Shown: in pieces, positions 2,438 to 20,656 of the stretch
Numbering within the stretch: the stretch's first letter is position 1
Layout: the number at the start of each line of letters is the position of its first letter
Source: a virus
DNA: 20,743 bases
Reading direction: 5' to 3' (one strand)
Virus record (IMG/VR): IMGVR_UViG_3300029261_000187
Span: 1-20,743 of that record
Program-made: the position numbers and the translations under genes
The notes under the pieces: model-generated
Seen by the model: the letters and a program-made list of their open reading frames with translations, nothing else
What the model was told of the DNA's origin: nothing
Database searches by the model: none

Positions 2438-2611
2438 ATGAATGTCGAGGCCGTAGCTGCCCTGATGATTATGCGTGGGCAACAAGTGCCTGTCGATATG
2501 ATCATTAGGCTCCAAGAAATGGGTCACAATTTCGATGCGTTTGAAAAGATGCACACAAAGAATGACCGATACACAAATAACCTAAATGACGAAACCACTA
2601 AGGATAAATAA
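2438..2611 (+). CDS. Small hypothetical protein, 57 aa
   Basis: Starts at ATG 2438 behind a purine-rich AAAAAAAGG ribosome site and stops at TAA 2609-2611, whose last base is the first base of the SSB start codon. This coupling, with the upstream phage promoter, supports a real gene. It would be the first gene read from P1. The protein begins MNVEAVAALMIMRGQQ, is helical in character with no cysteines and no membrane segment, and ends in a hydrophilic, Asn/Asp/Lys-rich tail. In T7 this interval holds small host-takeover genes, but I recognise no homolog and assign no function. Confidence 0.75.
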   Translation: MNVEAVAALMIMRGQQVPVDMIIRLQEMGHNFDAFEKMHTKNDRYTNNLNDETTKDK

Positions 2612-3222
2612 TGGCTATAACTACACCTAGAGGCACAGCAATGTGGGCTAAACTTTTCACACCTGACTACAAGTTTACAGATGTTGGAGAGTACAGTGTG
2701 GCACTCACTATTGGTGCTGACCAAGCCGCTGACATTCTGTCTAAGATTGACAGTCAGTTAGCATACTCGCTTGAGAAAGCGTTGAAAGAGAACCCCACCA
2801 AAAAGGGTTCGATCAAGCCAGCATCACCCCCTTACAAAGAAGTCTTTGATGATCAGGGTAATGCCACTGGTGATATCGAATTTAAATTCAAACAAAAAGC
2901 AGTAGTGCAGACCAAAAACGGTCCACTTAAAAAGAAGCCAGCCATCGTCGATGCAAAGGGTAAACCTATTCACGAAGCCATCGAAGTTGGTAACGGTTCT
3001 GTAATGAAAGTAGCCTTCGATATGTACCCTTACTACACCGCGATGGCGGGTGCAGGGGTATCGTTGAAGCTGACAGCAGTGCAGTTACTAGAAGTCAAAG
3101 GCGGTTTTAAGTTCGACGTTGAGGATGGCTATGAGTTTTCCGAAAGCGATGTGAAACAAGACGATGAATACTTCCAACAAGATGAAGCCCCAAAAGAAAC
3201 AGATAACTCTGGGGACTTCTAA
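2611..3222 (+). CDS. 2.5: Single-stranded DNA-binding protein, gp2.5-like
   Basis: Coats single-stranded DNA at the fork and coordinates polymerase and primase-helicase. At 203 aa it is somewhat shorter than T7 gp2.5 (232). It shows the family pattern: an N-terminal beta-rich part with PRGTAMWAKLFTPDY and GEYSVALTI, a central IEFKFKQKA strand, then IVDAKGKP, GSVMKVAFDMYPY and VSLKLTAVQLLEV, matching the OB-fold strands of T7 gp2.5. The last roughly 25 residues are strongly acidic and end in SGDF, like the T7 tail ending DGDF, which contacts gp5 and gp4. ATG 2611 overlaps the stop of the upstream gene by one base. Its 3' end overlaps the endonuclease gene by 59 bases. Confidence 0.93.
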   Translation: MAITTPRGTAMWAKLFTPDYKFTDVGEYSVALTIGADQAADILSKIDSQLAYSLEKALKENPTKKGSIKPASPPYKEVFDDQGNATGDIEFKFKQKAVVQTKNGPLKKKPAIVDAKGKPIHEAIEVGNGSVMKVAFDMYPYYTAMAGAGVSLKLTAVQLLEVKGGFKFDVEDGYEFSESDVKQDDEYFQQDEAPKETDNSGDF

Positions 3223-3583: not shown

Positions 3584-3992
3584 TCTGATTGTCGTTCACT
3601 GTTCAGCCACCAAGGTTGATCAGGAGTGTAACGCAGCGGTAATTGACAAGTGGCACCGTCAGCGTGGCTGGCGAAAGATCGGCTACCACTACGTCATTAA
3701 TCGTAGCGGTCTGCTTGAGACAGGGCGTGGCCTTGAAGAGGTTGGCGCACACGTTAAAGGCAAGAACAAAAACAGTATTGGCATCTCTATGATCGGTGGT
3801 CTTGATGCCAATGGTGACCCTGAGTGTAATTATACTAAGGAGCAATGGAAACAGTTGGATGAGTTGGTTGGTAAGCTACAAGTTGATTACCCAGATGCTG
3901 ATGTAGACGGTCACAATTCGTTTGCCGCTAAAGCATGTCCCTGTTTCAATGTAAAAGAATGGTTGAAGAACGAGAAGAAAGCTCTTTCATAG
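3570..3992 (+). CDS. 3.5: N-acetylmuramoyl-L-alanine amidase (phage lysozyme), gp3.5-like
   Basis: Cuts the amide bond between N-acetylmuramic acid and L-alanine in peptidoglycan for host lysis. At 140 aa it aligns along its whole length with T7 lysozyme (151 aa). Zinc ligands His10, His115 and Cys123 and catalytic Tyr39 and Lys121 are all present, each offset by exactly seven from T7 His17, His122, Cys130, Tyr46 and Lys128. Typical blocks are VVHCSATK, GYHYVI, NSIGISMIGG and KACPCF. AAGGAG at 3558-3563 is a strong ribosome site seven bases before ATG 3570. The gene overlaps endonuclease I by 14 bases. T7 lysozyme also binds and inhibits its RNA polymerase; the N-terminal tail here is seven residues shorter, so that second role is unproven. 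Confidence 0.96.
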   Translation: MRKINLIVVHCSATKVDQECNAAVIDKWHRQRGWRKIGYHYVINRSGLLETGRGLEEVGAHVKGKNKNSIGISMIGGLDANGDPECNYTKEQWKQLDELVGKLQVDYPDADVDGHNSFAAKACPCFNVKEWLKNEKKALS

Positions 3993-5578
3993 GGCATCAG
4001 GCCTGTCCTAACTGCCCGTCGAGCGATGGGTTTAGTGTTTACGATGACGGGCATGGTTATTGTTTTGTGTGTCACCATTATGTCCACGGTGACGGTAGTA
4101 ATATTCAAAAACGTGAGGTGAAAATGGCAACTACTGAGTTAGTTGAGCGGGACAGCTATGTCCCTTTGAGCAAACGTAGACTTAGCGAAGAGACTTGTAA
4201 GAAGTGGGACTACTTTCTCGCTGATTTCAATGGCAAGAAGTGCCATGTCGCTAATTACAAAGACGCACAAGGACAGACCGTGGCTCAGAAGCTGCGGTTT
4301 GCTAACAAAGACTTTCTTTTTATAGGTGATACCAAGGCAGCTACCCTATTCGGGCAGCACCTCTGGTCCGATGGCGGTAAGATGGTTACCGTAGTCGAGG
4401 GCGAACTAGATGCCTTGTCACTGCAACAAACAATGAAGAGTTGGCCCGTTGTCTCCATACCTAATGGGGCAGCGGGTGCAAAGAAATCAGTGCAGAAAAA
4501 TTTGGAGTGGCTTAACAAGTTCGATAAAGTTAATTTCTGTTTTGACAACGACGATGCTGGTAGAAAAGCAGCAAAAGAATGTGCCGCGCTGCTGCCACCA
4601 TCTAAGAGCCGCATAGTTAATCTGCCCTTAAAGGATGCCAACGAAATGTTGGTAGAGAATAGGACAGAGGAACTGGTCAGGGCTGTCTGGGATGCCAAGG
4701 AATCTAGACCTGATGGTATCTTGAATGGCTCTGACCTGTGGGATGAGATCAACCTGATCAACAACGATCAAAGTTGGTCATACCCCTACCTTGGTATTAA
4801 CGAGAAGACCCAAGGATTACGCAAGGGGGAGATCGTAACGGTCACCGCTGGTTCTGGGATTGGCAAGAGCCAACTGTGCCGTGAGTTTGCTCACCACCTG
4901 TTAACTCAGGGTGAGACGATAGGAATCGTAGCCTTAGAGGAGAGCATCAAGAGAAGCGCACTAGGCCTGATGGCTATAGCAGCTAACAAACCACTTCACC
5001 TCAACGTAGAGGTCACACCAGAGGAGAAGCTAGAGGCATTTGAGAGTACCCTAGGTACTGGACGGGTCTTCTTGTACGACCACTGGGGTTCGACTGAGGC
5101 TGACAACCTCTTGGACAAGATACGTTACTTAGCGAATGGATGTGGCTGTGGTTTTATTGTGTTGGATCACATCTCAATCGTTGTGTCATCAGGTATGGAA
5201 GGTGGCGATGAGCGTAAGCTGATTGACAAGTTGATGACACTTCTACGTGGCCTGTGCGAGGAGCTAAAGATCGGCCTCATTCTTGTCAGCCACCTCAAGC
5301 GTCCAGATGGTAAAGGGCATGAGGAAGGTAGCGTAACAAGTTTGAGCCAACTCAGAGGCAGCGCAGCAATCGGTCAGTTATCAGATATGGTTATTGGCTG
5401 TGAACGAAACCAACAAGATGCTGAGAACAGCAACATCACGACTGTTCGTATATTAAAAAATAGATGGACGGGAGAGACAGGCATAGCAGCCCACTTGGAA
5501 TACGACAAACAAACTGGACGAATGAACGAAGTATCACTTGGTGATACAGAAACTTTCAATACAACAGAGGACTTTTAA
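3959..5578 (+). CDS. 4: DNA primase-helicase, gp4-like
   Basis: Unwinds the fork and makes primers. Domain order as in T7 gp4: an N-terminal zinc-binding domain (CPNC then CFVC, with a conserved SSDG and DDGHGYC between), a TOPRIM primase core (VVEGELDALSL near the middle, then FDNDDAGRKAA), and a RecA-like helicase with Walker A GSGIGKS (Lys at 4865-4867) and IVLDHISIVVS. The last residues, TEDF, resemble the acidic T7 tail ending DTDF that docks on the polymerase. I chose ATG 3959 because the distance to the first cysteine then matches T7 (539 aa against 566). An upstream in-frame ATG at 3935 would add eight residues; neither has a good ribosome site. It overlaps the amidase gene in another frame. 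Confidence 0.95.
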   Translation: MVEEREESSFIGHQACPNCPSSDGFSVYDDGHGYCFVCHHYVHGDGSNIQKREVKMATTELVERDSYVPLSKRRLSEETCKKWDYFLADFNGKKCHVANYKDAQGQTVAQKLRFANKDFLFIGDTKAATLFGQHLWSDGGKMVTVVEGELDALSLQQTMKSWPVVSIPNGAAGAKKSVQKNLEWLNKFDKVNFCFDNDDAGRKAAKECAALLPPSKSRIVNLPLKDANEMLVENRTEELVRAVWDAKESRPDGILNGSDLWDEINLINNDQSWSYPYLGINEKTQGLRKGEIVTVTAGSGIGKSQLCREFAHHLLTQGETIGIVALEESIKRSALGLMAIAANKPLHLNVEVTPEEKLEAFESTLGTGRVFLYDHWGSTEADNLLDKIRYLANGCGCGFIVLDHISIVVSSGMEGGDERKLIDKLMTLLRGLCEELKIGLILVSHLKRPDGKGHEEGSVTSLSQLRGSAAIGQLSDMVIGCERNQQDAENSNITTVRILKNRWTGETGIAAHLEYDKQTGRMNEVSLGDTETFNTTEDF

Positions 5579-5815
5579 ATGGGTAACACAGTACAATTAG
5601 ATATTGAGTTAGAGACTGCCTTCACACCTGAGGGTATAGAGATTTATCCATACGTTGATGACAGTGATGTCTCCGAAGCTGTAATGAGTATAGATTGGGA
5701 CAGTATATATGAGGTCACAGTTGAGTGCGCTCAAGATTGTGAGTCACTTGCTACGGCTGCTGATGAGCTAGAGGTTATGGCTGATCGAATACGTCAGTAT
5801 ATTCTTGACAACTAA
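5579..5815 (+). CDS. Hypothetical acidic protein, 78 aa
   Basis: ATG 5579 directly follows the helicase stop codon, with GAGG eight bases upstream, so it is probably translated from the same message. The protein is strongly acidic, with Asp/Glu spread over its length, a short hydrophobic strand-like start (MGNTVQLDIELETAF) and a helical C-terminal half (about residues 50-78). It has two cysteines (Cys50 and Cys54) and no membrane segment. It sits between helicase and DNA polymerase, where podoviruses often carry small unknown genes. The acidity would suit a DNA mimic or a partner of a basic protein, but that is speculation and no function is assigned. Confidence 0.8.
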   Translation: MGNTVQLDIELETAFTPEGIEIYPYVDDSDVSEAVMSIDWDSIYEVTVECAQDCESLATAADELEVMADRIRQYILDN

Positions 5816-5860: not shown

Positions 5861-7651
5861 ATGAGACTTCTATTTGACATAGAGACTGACGGTCTTGAAC
5901 CTACCTTGATCCATTGCATAGTAGCTAAGGATGTAGATACTAAGTTTGTCTACAGGTTCTATAAGGATATGCTTAATGACGGTGCCAAGCTTCTGTCTAC
6001 GGCTGATGAACTAATAGGCCACAACATAATGGGTTATGATGTACCTGTTATGGAGAAGTTTTACCCTGACCTTTTCGGGGATCGTTTACAGTGTAAACTA
6101 ACTGACACCTTAGTTCTGTCTCGACTGTTGTGGCCCGACCGCCGTGAAAGAGATTTCAAACTTCACAGGGAAGGGAAGCTGATACCAAAACTCATTGGTT
6201 CACACGGCCTAAAGGCGTGGGGCCAGCGTCTGGGGGACGCAAAGGACAGTTTTGGTGAAGACACTGATTGGCAAGAGTTCAGCATGGAAATGTTAGACTA
6301 CTGCGAACAAGATGTGGAGCTAAACTACCGTCTCTACCAGCTATGTTTAAACCAGCAAGGCAGCGACGATGCCATTGGATTAGAGCATGACATACATGCA
6401 ATATGTATGAAGCAGACAGAGAATGGTTTTCCTTTGGATGAGAGAAAAGCTGTAATCCTTTACTCCCGTCTAAGCACACGAAGACAGGACATCTACAATG
6501 AGTTGGTAGATACCTTTGGGTCATGGTGGGAACCTGTAGGCGTAGTCACCCCCAAGCGTAGTATCAACTACAAGTCAGTAGACAGGCAGTCAGTGTGGAA
6601 GGATGCACCCTACACCAAGATCAAGAGGGTCACGTTCAACCCAGCTAGTCGGCATCACATAGCTCAGAGGCTCACACATAAGTACGGCTGGGAGCCTCAG
6701 TTATTCACTGAGACTGATGAGGCTAGGGTAGACGATAAGGTCCTAGGTTCGTTGGAGTACCCAGAGGCCAAGCTGTTAGCTGAATACTTATTGATCCAGA
6801 AAAGGATTGGTCAGTTAGCAGAGGGTAACCAAGCGTGGCTCAAGCTGTCTAAGGATGGCAAGCTACACGGCAGGGTAAACACTATGGGATGTGTGACTTC
6901 ACGCTGTACCCATAGCAACCCAAACACTGGTCAAGTTCCTAGTGTCAATGCCAAGTATGGTTGGGAGTGTCGTGAGTTGTTTCATGCCCCTAAGGGCTGG
7001 CGGCTCATGGGGTGTGATGTTTCTGGTTTGGAGTTGAGAACCTTAGCCCATTACGTTTCTGCGTGGGACGATGGCAAGTATGCTGACATCCTATTGGAGG
7101 GTGACATTCACCAAGCCACGGCAGACGCTACAGGCCTGTCGAGATCGAACGCAAAAACATTTCAATACGCTCTCCTATATGGTGGGGGTGATGAGAAAAT
7201 AGGTTCTATTGTTGGTGGTGGTAAGAAGGAAGGTGCTGCGCTCAAGCGTAAGTATTTCAAAGCTACCCCAGCCATCAAGAAGCTAAGGTCAGCGGTACAG
7301 GACAAGGCCAAGCAAGGCTACATCAAGGGCATCGATGGTAGGCGTGTGCCTATTAGACATTCCCATGCTGCACTCAATTCTCTTTTACAAAGTTGCGGTG
7401 CAATATTGTGCAAGCGTTGGGTGGTCCTGTTCCATACGTTGTTACAGAAAAAAGGCTTTGTGGAAGGCGTTGACTACCAACAGGTGGCTTACGTCCATGA
7501 CGAAGTACAAGTGTTAGTGAAAGAAGAGGTGGCAGATGACATTGGACTACTCTGCATCGAAGCAATTAAACTTTCTGGACAGTATTACTCCATCAGACTT
7601 CCACTCAGCGGAGAGTACAAGGTCGGAGCAAACTGGGCGGAGACACACTGA
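5861..7651 (+). CDS. 5: Family A DNA polymerase with 3'-5' exonuclease, gp5-like
   Basis: Replicative polymerase, 596 aa against 704 in T7. Exonuclease domain: Asp6 and Glu8 (FDIETDG), TLVLSRL, GSHGLKAWGQRLG and Asp151 in YCEQDVELNYRLY. Polymerase domain: motif A Asp386 (CDVSGLELRTLAHY), motif B Arg428, Lys432 and Tyr436 (RSNAKTFQYALLYGGGDEKIG), motif C His546-Asp547-Glu548 (YVHDEVQV). Tyr436 is the equivalent of E. coli Pol I residue 762. Between FGSW (219-222) and APYT only about two dozen residues lie where T7 has its roughly 60-residue thioredoxin-binding insert, so this loop is much reduced. GAGAGAGGG upstream is a strong ribosome site. The 3' end overlaps the next gene by 116 bases. Confidence 0.97.
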   Translation: MRLLFDIETDGLEPTLIHCIVAKDVDTKFVYRFYKDMLNDGAKLLSTADELIGHNIMGYDVPVMEKFYPDLFGDRLQCKLTDTLVLSRLLWPDRRERDFKLHREGKLIPKLIGSHGLKAWGQRLGDAKDSFGEDTDWQEFSMEMLDYCEQDVELNYRLYQLCLNQQGSDDAIGLEHDIHAICMKQTENGFPLDERKAVILYSRLSTRRQDIYNELVDTFGSWWEPVGVVTPKRSINYKSVDRQSVWKDAPYTKIKRVTFNPASRHHIAQRLTHKYGWEPQLFTETDEARVDDKVLGSLEYPEAKLLAEYLLIQKRIGQLAEGNQAWLKLSKDGKLHGRVNTMGCVTSRCTHSNPNTGQVPSVNAKYGWECRELFHAPKGWRLMGCDVSGLELRTLAHYVSAWDDGKYADILLEGDIHQATADATGLSRSNAKTFQYALLYGGGDEKIGSIVGGGKKEGAALKRKYFKATPAIKKLRSAVQDKAKQGYIKGIDGRRVPIRHSHAALNSLLQSCGAILCKRWVVLFHTLLQKKGFVEGVDYQQVAYVHDEVQVLVKEEVADDIGLLCIEAIKLSGQYYSIRLPLSGEYKVGANWAETH

Positions 7652-7931
7652 CCCAAATGTCACAGGAGACATAGCAGAATACTACTCAATAACTTACCTT
7701 TTAGATCAGGGGCTTCATGTCTATAGAAACGCTTGTTGCACAGGTCCCGTTGATCTTATTGCTATGGATGGAAGCGGGGCCATCACTCTTATTGATGTTA
7801 AAACTATACGACCAGAGAGGGATTATAATGTCGCCTCTGTTCGTTCACCTTTGCAGAAAAAGCTCGGCGTTCAACTCCTTAGTTTTGACGCTACGACACG
7901 GGGCTTTAGCTGGAAAAATCATCGTGATTAA
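7536..7931 (+). CDS. Putative PD-(D/E)XK nuclease-like protein, 131 aa
   Basis: The conserved part starts about residue 41. GDIAE (Glu48), GPVDLIA (Asp73) and LIDVKT (Asp87-x-Lys89) have the order and spacing of the catalytic Glu...Asp...(D/E)xK of PD-(D/E)XK nucleases such as archaeal Holliday-junction resolvase-like and group I intron-type endonuclease families. ATG 7536 has GAGG six bases upstream; the only nearby in-frame alternative is TTG 7542. No usable start codon exists after the end of the polymerase gene, so the first 39 codons are read from polymerase coding DNA in another frame. Overlapping ORFs in the third frame are less convincing. A role in recombination or DNA processing is inferred from fold and neighbours only. 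Confidence 0.75.
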   Translation: MTLDYSASKQLNFLDSITPSDFHSAESTRSEQTGRRHTDPNVTGDIAEYYSITYLLDQGLHVYRNACCTGPVDLIAMDGSGAITLIDVKTIRPERDYNVASVRSPLQKKLGVQLLSFDATTRGFSWKNHRD

Positions 7932-9716: not shown

Positions 9717-9889
9717 AGTGCATCGACTACATGAAGGATAACATGACGCCCATTATGTACATGGGGTACTTGGAAGGGGCCACTAAGAAGTACCTTCATA
9801 GGTATCGGTACAAGGGCCAGCCTGTCGAGGACCTAAAGAAAGCACGGTGGTACTTACATGCACTTATCAAAGAGATGGAGGGTAAATGA
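9662..9889 (+). CDS. DUF3310 family protein (T7 gp1.7-related family)
   Basis: The 75 aa show the DUF3310 pattern: NKPDHYTNGGIECIDYM, then GYLEGATKKYLHRY and EDLKKARWYLHALI. The family includes proteins related to T7 gp1.7, reported as a nucleotide kinase, and is often annotated that way; whether this short version has activity is unknown. GTG 9662 has AGAGG eight bases upstream and lies inside the exonuclease gene (55-base overlap). It opens the nucleotide-metabolism block, which supports a role in nucleotide supply. Confidence 0.85.
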   Translation: MDTKDNINKPDHYTNGGIECIDYMKDNMTPIMYMGYLEGATKKYLHRYRYKGQPVEDLKKARWYLHALIKEMEGK

Positions 9890-10137
9890 GCTTCACCATT
9901 ATTAGTCAAGCAGGGTGTCGCTATTGTCGCATGGCACTCGTCCACCTTCAAATCACAGATCGAGGTGCAAAAGTTTATGACATCGATGATCGACCTTGGC
10001 TCAAGACCTTGATGGGTCAGGCAGGGTTAAAATCAGTACCCCAAATCTACAGTCCCCAAGGTGATCACATCGGCGGCTTCGATGAGTTGGTGGAGTGGAA
10101 GGGTTACAGTCAAGCAGGAGCAAGATCATCCAAGTAA
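9886..10137 (+). CDS. Glutaredoxin
   Basis: A small dithiol reductant of the thioredoxin fold, 83 aa. The active site is CRYC at 11-14 after the first strand (FTIISQAGCRYC), with the cis-proline at Pro52 (KSVPQIY) and the GGFDEL glutathione-binding turn at 63-68, all at the usual distances. ATG 9886 overlaps the preceding stop (ATGA) and follows GGAGGG. It precedes thyX, mazG and the ribonucleotide reductase gene. Class II reductase needs an external dithiol to recycle its C-terminal cysteines, so serving that enzyme is a reasonable inference, as for T4 NrdC. Confidence 0.93.
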   Translation: MSFTIISQAGCRYCRMALVHLQITDRGAKVYDIDDRPWLKTLMGQAGLKSVPQIYSPQGDHIGGFDELVEWKGYSQAGARSSK

Positions 10138-10773: not shown

Positions 10774-11169
10774 TTGGCGAAATGGGATATAAAGAAAATA
10801 GAACAGGCGTTTAGTAAAGGAACTACAATCTACCAAGATCACATAGCCCCCGCCCTCACCTTGAATGACTACCAGAACAGGGCGCACAAGACAGCCATAT
10901 ACCCTGTGAACAAAGGCTTAGAGTACCTGATTACAGGCCTAGCAGCAGAGGTTGGTGAGGTCTCAGGGAAGGTAGCTAAGTACTACCGCAAGGACGGTGA
11001 GTTCCCAAAGCAAGATGTACTGGATGAACTGGGGGATGTACTCTGGTTCGTTGCTGAACTTTCAACATTACTAGGCTCACCTCTAAGCAAAGTGGCGATG
11101 GGTAATATAGACAAATTAGCGTCACGCAAAGAGCGCGGCGTTCTCAAAGGTAGCGGAGACAATCGATGA
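10774..11169 (+). CDS. mazG: MazG-like nucleotide pyrophosphohydrolase
   Basis: All-alpha NTP pyrophosphatase family, 131 aa, one MazG domain. The metal-binding motifs are EVGE (Glu59, Glu62) and, after a basic KYYRK stretch, DELGD (Glu85, Asp88) with LWFVAEL following. Such proteins remove non-canonical nucleotides or adjust the dNTP pool; in marine phages an effect on host (p)ppGpp has been proposed but is debated. The start is TTG 10774, with GGAG seven bases upstream, one base after the thyX stop. The 3' end overlaps the reductase start by four bases (ATGA). Confidence 0.9.
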   Translation: MAKWDIKKIEQAFSKGTTIYQDHIAPALTLNDYQNRAHKTAIYPVNKGLEYLITGLAAEVGEVSGKVAKYYRKDGEFPKQDVLDELGDVLWFVAELSTLLGSPLSKVAMGNIDKLASRKERGVLKGSGDNR

Positions 11170-13133
11170 CTAATAATTATACACCTGACACACGCGCACA
11201 GGTAATCACACGCAGAACATACAACCGCCCTTTGAATAAAGAAGGCACTGAGTTTGAAAGCTGGGGCCAAACAATAGATCGTGTAGTATCACACCAACGC
11301 TGGTTGTGGGAACGCGCAAAAGGTGGGGAATTAAATCAGCTTGAGAACCATGAGCTAGAAGAGTTAAGAGAACTCTTTATGAAACGAATTGGCTTAACAT
11401 CAGGGCGCACACTATGGCTTGGTGGTACTGACGTAGCGAAGCACAGAGAGGCCTCACAGTTTAACTGTAGCTTTGCGCGGGTCGAGACCATCCACAATGT
11501 AGTTGATGGCTTCTGGCTCCTCCTACAGGGGTGTGGCGTAGGCTTTGAACCAATCACTGGGAACTTGAATGGCTTTACCAAGCCAGTAAAAATTGAGACA
11601 GTACGATCCACACGGGACAGCCGTGGTTATGACAACAACAATGAACATTATGTTGGAGATAGCTGGCGTCTAGAAGTGGGAGACAGTGCAGAGGCTTGGG
11701 CTAAGAGTGTTGGTAAGCTCTTGGCTATGAAAAAGCCTGTAAAGAAGATCATCCTAGACTTCACACAAATCCGACCCGCTGGTGAACGCTTGTCTGGTTA
11801 TGGTTGGATTAGTTCTGGGGATGCGACAATCTCTGTGGCCTTCAAAGCTATTGCAGAACTATTAAACAAACGCGCTGGGCAACTCTTAACGTGTATGGAT
11901 ATCTTGGATGTTATGAACTGGCTAGGCACATGCTTATCTAGCCGCCGTAGTGCTGAGATTGCCTTGATGTCTTATGGTTCTCCTGAGTGGAGGAAGTTTG
12001 CTAGAGCTAAGAAAGACCACTGGATAGACAACCCACAGAGAGCGCAGTCTAATAACAGTCTTGTGTTCTATAAGAAGCCTAGCTTGGACGAACTGACAGA
12101 AATCTTTGATATCATGGAAGACGCTGGGGGATCAGAGCCAGCCTTCATTAATGGAGAAGAAGCCACGCGCCGTGCGCCTTGGTTTGCTGGCGTAAATCCT
12201 TGTGCAGAGATACTTTTAGGTAATGCAAATTTTTGCAATTTAGTAGAGTTTGACCTTAACAAGGTTAATGGGTGGGACTTTAAAGAAGTTGAGGATTCAC
12301 TGCGTATCTTAGCACGGGCAAACTACCGACAGACCTGTGTGAACCTAGACGATGGTATCCTTCAAAGGTCATGGCATGAGCTAAATGAGTTCCTTAGACT
12401 TACAGGTGTGGGCTTAACAGGTATCGTTACTTGGGAACACCATGAGAGCGGTTGGCATCTACAGCAGTTGCGTAAGGCAGCACAGATGGGCGCACATTCA
12501 ATGGCTGACGAACTAAAGCTACCGCGCTCTAAGGCAGTAACCACAGTCAAGCCAAGTGGAACCCTTTCAAAGATAATGTCAACTACTGAGGGGGTGCATA
12601 AACCGTTAGGTAAATACATCTTTAACAATGTGAGGTTTAGCAAACATGATCCACTTGTGGAAATACTCAAGGCGGGTAATTACAGGGTTTGGACTGATCC
12701 TTATAGCGATGACGCTGTGCTTGCTACCTTCCCTGTTGCTTATGATAATGTTGAATTTACCAATGTAGACGGTAAAGAAGTTAACATGGAAAGTGCTGTT
12801 GATCAGCTAAATCGTTACAAGAAAATGATCACCTATTATGTTGACCACAACTGTTCAGTCACGATCAGTTACTCACCAGATGAAGTACCAAGTATCATCC
12901 AATGGTTGCGAGTAAACTGGGATAACTATGTGGGGGTGAGCTTCATCTACCGAAACGATCCTACCAAGACTGCGGAAGATTTAGGCTACCCATATCTCCC
13001 ACAGGAAGTTGTAACCAAGACAACCTTTGATGCTTATTCAGCTTCACTGCTACCCATCAATATAGACAATGCCAACACCCTTGAAGAGTTTGAGGACGAA
13101 GGCTGTGCAACGGGGGCTTGCCCAATCAAATGA
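11166..13133 (+). CDS. Class II (adenosylcobalamin-dependent) ribonucleotide reductase
   Basis: Reduces ribonucleotides to deoxyribonucleotides with a B12 cofactor. The 655 aa look like the monomeric Lactobacillus leichmannii triphosphate reductase (739 aa). Key residues keep that spacing: Asn344, Cys346 and Glu348 in NPCAEI (N406, C408, E410), redox pair Cys101 and Cys357 (C119, C419; the 11-residue gap to the thiyl cysteine is identical) and C-terminal Cys647 and Cys652 (C731, C736). PSGTLSKIMSTTEGVHK is the usual substrate-phosphate block. No second-subunit gene follows, as expected for class II. It is coupled to mazG by ATGA and to the next small gene the same way. The enzyme requires host or environmental cobalamin. 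Confidence 0.94.
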   Translation: MTNNYTPDTRAQVITRRTYNRPLNKEGTEFESWGQTIDRVVSHQRWLWERAKGGELNQLENHELEELRELFMKRIGLTSGRTLWLGGTDVAKHREASQFNCSFARVETIHNVVDGFWLLLQGCGVGFEPITGNLNGFTKPVKIETVRSTRDSRGYDNNNEHYVGDSWRLEVGDSAEAWAKSVGKLLAMKKPVKKIILDFTQIRPAGERLSGYGWISSGDATISVAFKAIAELLNKRAGQLLTCMDILDVMNWLGTCLSSRRSAEIALMSYGSPEWRKFARAKKDHWIDNPQRAQSNNSLVFYKKPSLDELTEIFDIMEDAGGSEPAFINGEEATRRAPWFAGVNPCAEILLGNANFCNLVEFDLNKVNGWDFKEVEDSLRILARANYRQTCVNLDDGILQRSWHELNEFLRLTGVGLTGIVTWEHHESGWHLQQLRKAAQMGAHSMADELKLPRSKAVTTVKPSGTLSKIMSTTEGVHKPLGKYIFNNVRFSKHDPLVEILKAGNYRVWTDPYSDDAVLATFPVAYDNVEFTNVDGKEVNMESAVDQLNRYKKMITYYVDHNCSVTISYSPDEVPSIIQWLRVNWDNYVGVSFIYRNDPTKTAEDLGYPYLPQEVVTKTTFDAYSASLLPINIDNANTLEEFEDEGCATGACPIK

Positions 13134-17828: not shown

Positions 17829-20198
17829 ATGGCTCTTCTTAGTGGTTCCATACCCAACCTAATCAATGGGGTATCACAACAACCTACTAGCCTTAGGTTA
17901 GCTACACAGGCACAGGCACAAGAGAACGCTTTATCAGGTGTTGTTAAAGGTCTTCAAAAACGCCCTCCAACAGAGCATGTGGCTTATGTACAAAACGTAC
18001 CCACGATTTCTTACACTACAGCCTTTTTTCATACCATGCGTCTACAGGACCTTGATGGAGTTTTACGTCCTTACTTTGTAATCATTGGTGACTTAGGCAT
18101 TAGTGTTTATAACTCATTAGGCGTTCAGCAGACTGTTACAGATAGTACAGGTGGGTTTGGTTACTTCTCTGGTATCTCCAACTATAGTAGTGACCTTAGT
18201 GCCACGACTGTTGCTGATTTTACCTTCATTTTAAATAGAACTAAAAAAGTTAAAAAAGGTACGACTGCCACAGCCCCTCTGAAACATGAGGGTATGATTG
18301 TTATTAAGCAGGGTGATTATAGTACAGACTATAAGGCCAGCATAACTTTCAGCGGCACAACATATACAGCCACATACTCTACAAGAGATAGTAGTAGTGT
18401 AGCCCACGAAGTTGATGCTAAAACAACTAACATTGCTACCAATTTAAAGAGCCAGCTAGAGGGTGCAGTCCCCGCTGGTTTTACTTTTGAGTTAATTGAT
18501 AATGTCATTTACATCACTAGGGCTGATAACACAGAGTTCTCTATGTCTGCCTCAGACAGCCACGGTGATACCCACACTGAGTCACTTAAAGGTGCTATAG
18601 GAAGCCTCAAAGACCTACCAAGTAAAGGTAAAGTGGGCTTCATCATTAGAGTTAATGGTGACACATCAAAGAACCAAGATGATTACTTTGTTAAGTTACA
18701 AGCACCAGATGCTGGTGGTGATACTGTATGGAAAGAAACCGTTGGTCCCGCCGTTCTAAAAGACTTCGATAGTTCCACAATGCCTCACAGATTGGTGAGA
18801 AATGCTAATGGTACTTTTACCTTTAGCACAGTGTTATGGGATGAGCGTAAGGCAGGGGATGATGACACAAACCCATACCCTAGCTTCTCTAACTATGATG
18901 CAACTGAGTATGCAGATGGTCAGTTTAAAATTAACGATATATTCTTTTACAAGAACAGATTGTGTTTTCTTTCAGATGAGAACCTAATTTGTAGTGAAAG
19001 TGGTAGCTTCTTTAACTTCTTCCAATCAACAGTCCTTACTGTTCTTGATGACGCAGCCATCGATGTGGCTGTCAGCAACAGTACAGTTAGTATTTTAAAG
19101 TATGCAGTACCGTTCAATGAGAGCTTAATTCTGTTTTCTGATTTGACCCAGTTTAAGGTTACCAACGAAGACATCTTTTCAGCCTCTACAATTTCGATAG
19201 ACGTTACCACACAGTTTGAAGCCTCCCTAAACTCAAGGCCAGCCGCTGCTGGTAAGTATGTTTTCTTTCCTACCTTAAAAGGTTCATGGTCGGGAGTGCG
19301 TGAGTACTTCGTACAGGGAGACAATGACACTAACGATGCCGCCGATATTACTTCACACGTACCTGAGTACCTGTCGGGTAAAGTTACGCAGCTAGTGGCT
19401 TCACCCAACGAAGACATATTGCTAGTACGCACCGCTGGTGACCGAAAGCAGTTCTATATATATTCTTATTACTGGCAGGGTGCAGATAAGCTACAATCCT
19501 CTTGGTCTGTTTGGAAATTTGGGAGTAACGTCCTAAACATTGAAATTGATAATTCACTCATTTACCTTCTTGTTCAACGTGGAGAAGGTATTGCTATAGA
19601 GACATTAAATTTAAGTACAGATAATGCAAAATTAGATACTACCTATTTCGGTATCAATCTAGACAGGCGTTTTAAGAGAACAGCCTCAACTGATGCAGTT
19701 CCTTATACTGGTGGAACTGCTGTTTCCTGTACAGGTAATATCCTTAATGAACTTTCGGGTGAAGTTGCTACTACTTTAGATGGAATAGACGATGGCAATG
19801 GTTCGTATACAACAGCCCCAGAGGTTGTTTATACAGGTATTCCTTATACGTTCTTATATGAGTTCTCCCCTATAATTCTGAAGCAAGACGAAAAGCCTGT
19901 CAGTATTGGTAGACTTCAAATCAAATACTTAAACGTACTATTTGACGATACATCTTACTTCAACACCAGCGTCTCACGGCAGGGACAAGCTGCATCAATA
20001 AAAACATTTGTTGGAACAGCCTTAGACAGCAGTAACGTCATTGGTACTTTGGGTATTAAGAGCGGATCGATAGCCATACCAGTTATGGCTCAAAGCTCAA
20101 ACGTAGCTATTAAACTTTACAGTTCCACATTTCACCCAGCTACTTTTCAAAGTGCAGAGTGGGAAGCTACTTATCATATGAGAAGTAAAAGAATATAG
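17829..20198 (+). CDS. 12: Tail tubular protein B (nozzle), gp12-like
   Basis: Forms the hexameric nozzle of the short tail. The 789 aa equal T7 gp12 in length (794). The N-terminus MALLSGSIPNLINGVSQQPT, followed by ALSGVVKGLQKRPP, matches T7 closely, as does TVADFTFILNR; the rest is beta-rich, with FKINDIFFYKNRLCFLSDENLICSES typical of the propeller part. AGGAGAGG precedes ATG 17829, two bases after the gp11 stop. The end overlaps the gp13-like start by one base (TAGTG). Confidence 0.95.
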   Translation: MALLSGSIPNLINGVSQQPTSLRLATQAQAQENALSGVVKGLQKRPPTEHVAYVQNVPTISYTTAFFHTMRLQDLDGVLRPYFVIIGDLGISVYNSLGVQQTVTDSTGGFGYFSGISNYSSDLSATTVADFTFILNRTKKVKKGTTATAPLKHEGMIVIKQGDYSTDYKASITFSGTTYTATYSTRDSSSVAHEVDAKTTNIATNLKSQLEGAVPAGFTFELIDNVIYITRADNTEFSMSASDSHGDTHTESLKGAIGSLKDLPSKGKVGFIIRVNGDTSKNQDDYFVKLQAPDAGGDTVWKETVGPAVLKDFDSSTMPHRLVRNANGTFTFSTVLWDERKAGDDDTNPYPSFSNYDATEYADGQFKINDIFFYKNRLCFLSDENLICSESGSFFNFFQSTVLTVLDDAAIDVAVSNSTVSILKYAVPFNESLILFSDLTQFKVTNEDIFSASTISIDVTTQFEASLNSRPAAAGKYVFFPTLKGSWSGVREYFVQGDNDTNDAADITSHVPEYLSGKVTQLVASPNEDILLVRTAGDRKQFYIYSYYWQGADKLQSSWSVWKFGSNVLNIEIDNSLIYLLVQRGEGIAIETLNLSTDNAKLDTTYFGINLDRRFKRTASTDAVPYTGGTAVSCTGNILNELSGEVATTLDGIDDGNGSYTTAPEVVYTGIPYTFLYEFSPIILKQDEKPVSIGRLQIKYLNVLFDDTSYFNTSVSRQGQAASIKTFVGTALDSSNVIGTLGIKSGSIAIPVMAQSSNVAIKLYSSTFHPATFQSAEWEATYHMRSKRI

Positions 20199-20656
20199 TG
20201 ATTACATTTACAAACTCTACATTTAGAGACTGCCATGAACTAGCACCTGTAATGAGACTTGTGGATGTAAAAGAGGTGAAGGACGCAGGGGGCTTAGACC
20301 CTTATCAAGCATTACTTACCTCTATTAACTTAACAGGTATCTCAAACACAATCAGAGTTGATAATGATATAGTAGCTATGTGTGGTGTTGTAGATGTTGG
20401 TAAGCATGGCGTCCCGTGGATGCTAGGCACAGACGCCTTAAAGAAAAACGCTAAGAAATTGCTCCCTTTGTCCAAGCAGTGGATTGAAGATAATTGCAGT
20501 AAACATGAGCTATTATACAACTATGTATCTGCGGATAATCTAAGTTCTATTCGGTGGCTTAAATACCTCGGCTTTTCTTTAATCAGATACATCCCACTAT
20601 ACGGTGCGGGTAAAGCCCCCTTTTATGAATTTGTCAGGATAAAACAAAATGTGTGA
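20198..20656 (+). CDS. gp13-like internal protein with acetyltransferase (GNAT) fold
   Basis: The 152 aa sit where T7 has gene 13 (138 aa). Several blocks look like a degenerate GNAT fold: IVAMCGVVDVGKHGVPWMLGT (strand region), a helix, then NLSSIRWLKYLGFSL, the usual GNAT C-terminal strand-helix motif. The acetyl-CoA pyrophosphate-binding loop (Q/RxxGxG/A) is not clear, so catalysis is doubtful. In T7, gp13 is needed for infectious particles. The start is GTG 20198, overlapping the gp12 stop by one base. Confidence 0.78.
   Translation: MITFTNSTFRDCHELAPVMRLVDVKEVKDAGGLDPYQALLTSINLTGISNTIRVDNDIVAMCGVVDVGKHGVPWMLGTDALKKNAKKLLPLSKQWIEDNCSKHELLYNYVSADNLSSIRWLKYLGFSLIRYIPLYGAGKAPFYEFVRIKQNV

Follow-up and report, generated by a model that had tools for sequence, protein, structure and literature searches.

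The window analyzed here is the whole of an IMG/VR virus record of 20,743 bases, itself a fragment. It encodes, in order, an RNA polymerase, a single-stranded DNA-binding protein (SSB), an endonuclease, an amidase, a primase-helicase, a DNA polymerase, a PhoH-like protein and a 5'-3' exonuclease, followed downstream of the exonuclease by a glutaredoxin-like protein, ThyX, MazG, a class II ribonucleotide reductase, and head and tail genes (Table 1). The amidase, MazG and the head and tail genes were assigned from position and resemblance, the one exception being a weak match to gp13 at positions 20198-20656. The succession of RNA polymerase, SSB, endonuclease, amidase, primase-helicase, polymerase and exonuclease is that of an autographivirus. 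The window phage is an uncultivated T7-like (autographivirus-type) phage, and the gene under study encodes its replicative family A polymerase. Between the primase-helicase and polymerase genes lies an open reading frame (ORF) for an acidic 78-aa protein (positions 5579-5815), which has no match in Pfam and PHROG scans and which is evidently fast-evolving, since it is only 58-59% identical in nine contigs of the same clade whose polymerases are 89-91% identical. Another ORF (7536-7931) overlaps the 3' end of the polymerase gene, has weak matches to the YraN family and to PHROG 5018, and possibly encodes a small nuclease.

Table 1. Features of the replication region and of neighboring genes in the window.
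Feature	Position	Strand	Basis
T7 gp2.5-type single-stranded DNA-binding protein	2611..3222	+	Pfam SBB_T7 2.2e-14
Acidic C-terminal tail of SSB, last 20 aa, net -7, ending GDF	3160..3219	+	
T7-type primase-helicase, likely fork partner	3935..5578	+	Pfam DnaB_C, Helic-prim_T7_N, Toprim_2
Acidic C-terminal tail of helicase, last 20 aa, net -4, ending EDF	5516..5575	+	
Family A DNA polymerase with 3'-5' exonuclease domain, T7 gp5 homologue, 596 aa	5861..7651	+	
Short thumb-tip segment FGSW...APYT; predicted beta-hairpin replacing T7 thioredoxin-binding loops	6515..6616	+	
Thumb hairpin, first stem strand (aa 221-229)	6521..6547	+	AlphaFold2 model, block pLDDT 84
Thumb hairpin, second stem strand (aa 251-258)	6611..6634	+	AlphaFold2 model
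Short fork-facing segment LRSAVQDKAKQGY, 13 aa (28 in T7)	7283..7321	+	Multiple alignment
Glutaredoxin-like protein, assigned to ribonucleotide reductase, not polymerase	9886..10137	+	Pfam, PHROG, distribution
Adenosylcobalamin-dependent ribonucleoside-triphosphate reductase (class II)	11166..13133	+	TIGR02505, 561 bits, cut-off 340

The polymerase matches Pfam DNA_pol_A (5.4e-42) and PHROG 17 DNA polymerase (1.3e-147), and T7 gp5 structures rank first for it both by sequence and by fold. As expected of a T7-like family A polymerase, it is homologous to T7 gp5 over its full length and its exonuclease and polymerase motifs are intact; residues D6, E8, D386, H546 and D547, among others, are invariant across the window polymerase and 35 relatives. 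The closest named relatives are Roseobacter phage CRP-125 (49.5% identity, the highest among the matches listed), other roseophages, LUZ100 and the pelagiphages, with the HTVC019P polymerase at 44.3% identity. Ten IMG/VR contigs encode polymerases that are 89-92% identical to that of the window (nine full-length at 89-91%, one partial at 92%).

A preliminary description of this DNA had reported about two dozen residues between the motifs FGSW (aa 219-222, nt 6515-6526) and APYT (aa 249-252, nt 6605-6616) of the polymerase, where T7 has a much longer segment, between flanks that align well. Both observations hold: we count 26 residues in the window polymerase versus 59 in T7 gp5, and the flanks do align. 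Most of T7's thioredoxin-loop segment is absent, in four gaps totalling 33 residues at T7 positions 270-313. All ten close contigs have a thumb segment equal in length to the window's, which rules out chance or a sequencing artefact. Thus, the window polymerase lacks the roughly 70-residue thioredoxin-binding domain that characterizes the thumb of T7-type polymerases and resembles the phiKMV type, in which this domain is absent from a fold that is otherwise T7-like. The segment has a net charge of +5, and 18% of other stretches in the same protein are equally basic. We discounted basicity as a special feature of the hairpin: the corresponding segment is net positive in 45 of 48 polymerases, yet in only 12 of the 48, the window's not among them, does it fall in the top tenth of its own protein.

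As the preliminary description had proposed, we predicted the structure of the polymerase and overlaid it on T7 gp5. The AlphaFold2 model, for which the alignment input was the window polymerase and 35 IMG/VR relatives, has a mean pLDDT of 91.9, superposes 591 of 596 residues on 2ajq_F (Z 42.5, rmsd 2.5 A), and has a two-stranded hairpin at the tip of the thumb. With at most five residues unpaired with 2ajq_F, most of the window hairpin would, as modeled, have to overlie T7 residues. A small inner strand pair (233-235 with 244-246) is also modeled. Block pLDDT values across aa 221-260 are 84, 72, 67 and 89, which makes the stem secure but not the tip. The second strand of the stem coincides in part with the stretch for which the family profile finds its match at the end of the thioredoxin-binding domain of T7.

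Homology between the short hairpin and longer inserts was assessed by comparing a profile of 14 short hairpins with 19 other inserts, each of which was shuffled 1000 times. The inserts of T7, DSBP2, BB8 and Lo5R7ANS outscore all 1000 of their shuffles and that of phTUNSm all but 2, while TH16 (22 shuffles as good) and the IMG/VR relative L014 (39) match marginally. The other 12 of the 19 inserts, including those of PCS4, Mak and phiCbK, do not stand out (at least 84 shuffles as good). For T7 and BB8 the profile alignment spans nothing but the last strand, and we accordingly limit the probable homology between the short hairpin and the T7 insert to that last strand. A stem of strands, and the sequence of at least one of them, look to be common to the window and T7 polymerases, with caps that look different. 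Another relative, L048 (5001-6848), carries a different insert of 48 residues, modeled as strands at 233-243 and 267-276 with a short helix between them, and this insert does not match the profile of window-type hairpins.

The thumb is not the only site at which T7 has more residues. In the multiple alignment T7 has 112 residues more than the window polymerase, 33 of which fall in the thumb segment; the remainder comprises 15 at the fork beta-hairpin (T7 574-588), 15 at 143-157, 19 at 191-209, and others that are scattered. The suggestion that the loss is local therefore does not stand, given that only 33 of the 112 residues lie in the thumb and that the fork hairpin with Trp579 is also missing. 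Conversely, no more than 4 residues of the window polymerase lack an equivalent in T7, which rules out relocation of the insert to another place in the protein, a possibility that had been raised at the outset. W579, in the beta-hairpin that faces the fork, falls within the gap at T7 574-588, and K587, K589, R590 and R591 come next; the stretch K587-R591 is called the "basic patch". This arrangement of a fork beta-hairpin with W579 and following basic residues is lacking from the window polymerase. The fork segment is 13-14 residues long in all 25 aligned IMG/VR relatives and 14 in E. coli Pol I. A form of 28-30 residues ending in WKR[RK] is present in six of six Studiervirinae sampled, and the T7-type fork hairpin is confined to these six rows of the alignment; RHEph21 and TRX32 have an unrelated 46-residue version at the same site, and longer fork stretches of other sequence occur in PS32B.1 (29) and phiKMV (44). 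The fork loop of T7, together with a lysine cleft, is described as required for strand displacement and for processive coupled synthesis (PMC8835902).

T7, with thioredoxin supplied by its host, is the textbook example of a simple replisome, and the thioredoxin-binding domain of T7 holds two basic loops. T7 gp5 is described as binding thioredoxin 1:1, with processivity raised about 80- to over 100-fold (PMC8472574, PMC3997047). We infer that the window polymerase probably does not bind thioredoxin. No match to a phage thioredoxin was found in the window record, a 20.7-kb fragment, or in three records close to its clade (28-44 kb), possibly fragments as well. It is conceivable that the short hairpin still binds a thioredoxin-fold protein, the host's or the phage's, through its stem and with an interface smaller than that of T7, and the match between the end stretch of T7's domain and the short-hairpin profile is consistent with this. 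So is the presence, in P60, Syn5, S-TIP28 and S-CBP42, of a thioredoxin-like gene that overlaps the start of the polymerase gene or lies within about 300 bases upstream of it. Since such a gene accompanies a polymerase with a short thumb in P60 and Syn5, a short thumb may still work with a thioredoxin fold in the P60 lineage. The P60 and Syn5 genes lie at L086:7603-7866 and L090:10475-10771, respectively, with one small ORF before the polymerase in Syn5, and their products, which score just under Pfam's thioredoxin cut-off, are possible phage-encoded partners of the polymerase. A search with the P60 thioredoxin-like protein (E 1e-3) found none in S-CBP2 and SS120-1, whose polymerases are also >60% identical to P60's. 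For the window, binding of a thioredoxin-fold partner is unlikely in our view: 33 of the 59 residues of the T7 segment are gone, the window and near-clade records have no thioredoxin match, and neither glutaredoxin nor thioredoxin is matched in 6 of the 10 named phages with a short thumb, although a host thioredoxin would escape such a search.

We then compared the length of the thumb segment, taken as the interval from FGSW to FNP, across polymerases. The interval is shorter than 50 residues in 32 of 48 phage polymerases (22 of the 26 IMG/VR rows, of which the window is one, and 10 of the 22 named phages), counts that are no census, as the 25 IMG/VR relatives are a chosen subset of 75 with a usable polymerase ORF and all 75 were found by their likeness to the window. 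By alignment column count, only L041 of all 75 attains T7's length. The interval spans 62-73 residues in all six Studiervirinae sampled (T7, DSBP2, PCS4, Mak, TH16 and phTUNSm) and 7 residues in E. coli Pol I; outside the Studiervirinae, long inserts are found in BB8 (63 residues), Lo5R7ANS (67) and phiCbK (82). phiKMV and SP6, whose flanks align badly and whose branches are long, were counted as long and no inference was drawn from them, and P-SSP7, with its polymerase annotated in two pieces, and the Desulfovibrio phage ProddE, because of an intron, were left out of the length count. In ProddE (L096), this intron is annotated within the polymerase gene, and in Pseudomonas phage TL the annotated parts of the polymerase flank a gene for endonuclease VII.

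A maximum-likelihood tree of 49 rows was built from 557 columns, with the thumb columns excluded. The window and T7 share one 17-row group (support 96/93) with L021, HTVC019P, L014, P60, Syn5, phiCbK and BB8, and the three close contigs on the tree group with the window at 100/100. Thirteen of 46 inner branches are open, several deep forks are weak, bootstrap values had not fully converged, and long branches lead to phiKMV, SP6, PS32B.1, L072 and the outgroup E. coli. Fitch parsimony assigns the short state to the window-T7 ancestor at thresholds of both 50 and 60 and to the root, assigns the long state to the T7-BB8 ancestor, and has the long fork hairpin arise at the ancestor of the Studiervirinae, on the path to T7. 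Under squared-change parsimony, the reconstructed length is 44 residues in the ancestor of the window and T7, 54 in that of T7 and BB8 and 65 in that of the Studiervirinae. Lengths and parsimony together indicate that the longer inserts have more than one origin.

These reconstructions bear on the terms "loss" and "shortened" that the preliminary description had used. Because parsimony puts the short state at the window-T7 ancestor, albeit on a tree with several weak deep forks, "shortened" is probably the wrong word, and it is T7's segment that was enlarged. As far as the sequences tell, T7's loops are probably a gain near the ancestor of the Studiervirinae and BB8, the short form being ancestral. 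The opposite course, in which an ancestor had T7's thioredoxin-binding loops and the window's lineage deleted them, draws on the long inserts of BB8, Lo5R7ANS and phiCbK outside the Studiervirinae, on the matches of the T7, DSBP2, phTUNSm, BB8 and Lo5R7ANS inserts to the short-hairpin profile, and on the interpretation by Magill et al. (2017), who describe the absence of the domain in phiKMV viruses as a tolerable deletion (PMC5653853). We consider such a secondary loss quite improbable, given the short window-T7 ancestor and root, the 7 residues of E. coli Pol I at the thumb interval, and the restriction of the T7-type fork hairpin, likewise, to the six Studiervirinae rows.

The preliminary description had also hinted that the phage glutaredoxin might partner the polymerase. 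The glutaredoxin-like protein of the window scores 20.5 bits against Pfam Glutaredoxin (cut-off 22.9) and matches the PHROG 22 thioredoxin domain at 3.5e-9, and the three records of the window clade score above the Pfam cut-off. Its gene sits among thyX, mazG and the reductase gene and does not adjoin the polymerase. In a sample of 36 records (12 IMG/VR and 24 named), a glutaredoxin-family match is present in six of six records with an above-cut-off class II reductase and absent from 29 of the 30 others, an association (Fisher p 3.6e-6, relatedness uncorrected) that spans four lineages when the three window-clade records are taken as one. The seventh carrier is phiCbK, for which a glutaredoxin-type domain fused to a reductase subunit has been described (PMC3556154). 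L052 matches the reductase more weakly (265 bits) and lacks a glutaredoxin match. P60 gives no support for the reductase link, because its glutaredoxin-family match is the thioredoxin-like gene that adjoins the polymerase and is not near the reductase. An account of roseophage genomes mentions glutaredoxin in all ten phages and cites the T4 glutaredoxin as an electron donor for the T4 reductase (PMC11092137). Replacement of thioredoxin by the window glutaredoxin as processivity factor, which the presence of a glutaredoxin-family gene in the window, its clade, CRP-125 and SIO1 might suggest, is hardly credible and was rejected on its distribution across the 36 records: the matches coincide with the class II reductase (6/6 vs 1/30), a glutaredoxin match is missing from 7 of the 10 named phages with a short thumb, and LUZ100, HTVC019P, HTVC011P, HTVC103P, RHEph21 and TRX32 combine a short thumb with neither a glutaredoxin nor a thioredoxin match.

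The helicase and SSB of the window end in ...NTTEDF and ...NSGDF, respectively, and both therefore have the acidic, aromatic-ending C-terminal tails of a T7-type replisome. We scored such tails among IMG/VR relatives as those with a net charge of -2 or lower and an aromatic residue within the last three positions, using as background other ORFs of at least 150 aa, each background containing the other tail class. By this measure, 34 of 39 distinct helicase tails (63 loci) qualify versus 33 of 241 other ORFs, and 19 of 19 distinct SSB tails (27 loci) versus 47 of 259 other ORFs, relatedness being uncorrected in both comparisons. The tails are therefore found in phages that lack the loops and fork hairpin of T7. 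SIO1 has a short-thumb polymerase and a helicase without an acidic aromatic tail. The T7 SSB tail is thought to regulate SSB itself, and Hamdan et al. in 2005 reportedly found that the thioredoxin-binding domain of T7 also binds helicase and SSB. T7 sites known to take the tails belong to the elements that the window polymerase lacks, and the tails may serve other ends. In accounts of the T7 system, helicase tails bind positive patches on the polymerase (PMC8472574, PMC7699545), the SSB tail binds the thioredoxin-binding domain (PMC7699545), processivity falls threefold when the helicase tail is removed, and stimulation between helicase and polymerase is mutual (PMC8472574).

Taking these observations together, we think it reasonably probable that the window encodes a family A replicative polymerase that works without T7's thioredoxin clamp and that helicase and SSB hold at the fork. 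Between the two thumb helices would sit a hairpin of two strands, about 38 residues long, a site that T7-group phages would have enlarged with loops gripping host thioredoxin; the lineage of the window phage most likely never had such loops. By itself the polymerase would have modest processivity, and it would be kept at the fork through coupling to the ring-shaped primase-helicase and to SSB, whose acidic, aromatic-ending tails would contact basic surfaces of the polymerase, possibly including the thumb hairpin. We can fairly infer that processivity comes by another route than in T7, and window-type viruses may keep their polymerase on DNA in another way. T7's clamp is probably the exception, as most of the compared relatives outside T7's group have a short thumb.

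A broader and more tentative proposal, to which we give somewhat less than an even chance as a whole, is that the thumb stem is an exchange site for caps (the short PK hairpin, the stem with a helix in L048, and the thioredoxin loops of T7), that the tails predate their T7 binding sites, and that many marine T7-like phages have a thioredoxin-free replisome with an undescribed tail-docking site. Absence of the domain has already been published for phiKMV-like phages, and the window polymerase is a further example of such absence. Among the open-licence PMC papers listed in our searches we found no mapping of the gain or loss of thioredoxin loops in marine autographiviruses, and nothing on polarity, on the joint absence of the fork hairpin or on the tails having persisted. 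Replication much like that of T7 is expected of cyanopodoviruses that encode a polymerase (PMC9860041), and a preprint suggests that studies of T7 may apply directly to viral communities (PMC13228545). If the thioredoxin loops and fork hairpin are additions of the T7 group, such transfer from T7 to marine viruses needs testing, and the polymerase family offers a natural series of thumb tips with which to do so.

Among known systems, T7 gp5 (PDB 1t7p, 2ajq, 6n7w) shares with the window polymerase its family, fold, domain order and gene neighborhood, and T7 likewise has acidic, aromatic-ending helicase and SSB tails; the window polymerase differs in that its thioredoxin-binding segment is short by 33 residues and its counterpart of the W579 fork hairpin by 15. 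The gene order of the window is also that of T7, LUZ100 and CRP-125, with other genes interspersed. The polymerases of phiKMV viruses, which are described as having error-prone replication and raised sequence variation (PMC5653853), lack the domain as the window polymerase does but are distant from it in sequence, and the phiKMV alignment is unreliable here. The thumb tips of CRP-125 (34 residues) and HTVC019P (23) are unlike the window's in sequence. CRP-125, like the window, has a glutaredoxin match, thyX, mazG, a class II reductase and phoH, whereas HTVC019P has a two-subunit reductase and no glutaredoxin match. In P60 and Syn5 the thumb tip of the polymerase is 31 residues long and has a P[KR]R...Y...AP[FM]CK pattern resembling that of the window, but just upstream of the polymerase, where these phages carry a thioredoxin-like gene, the window has the unrelated acidic 78-aa ORF.
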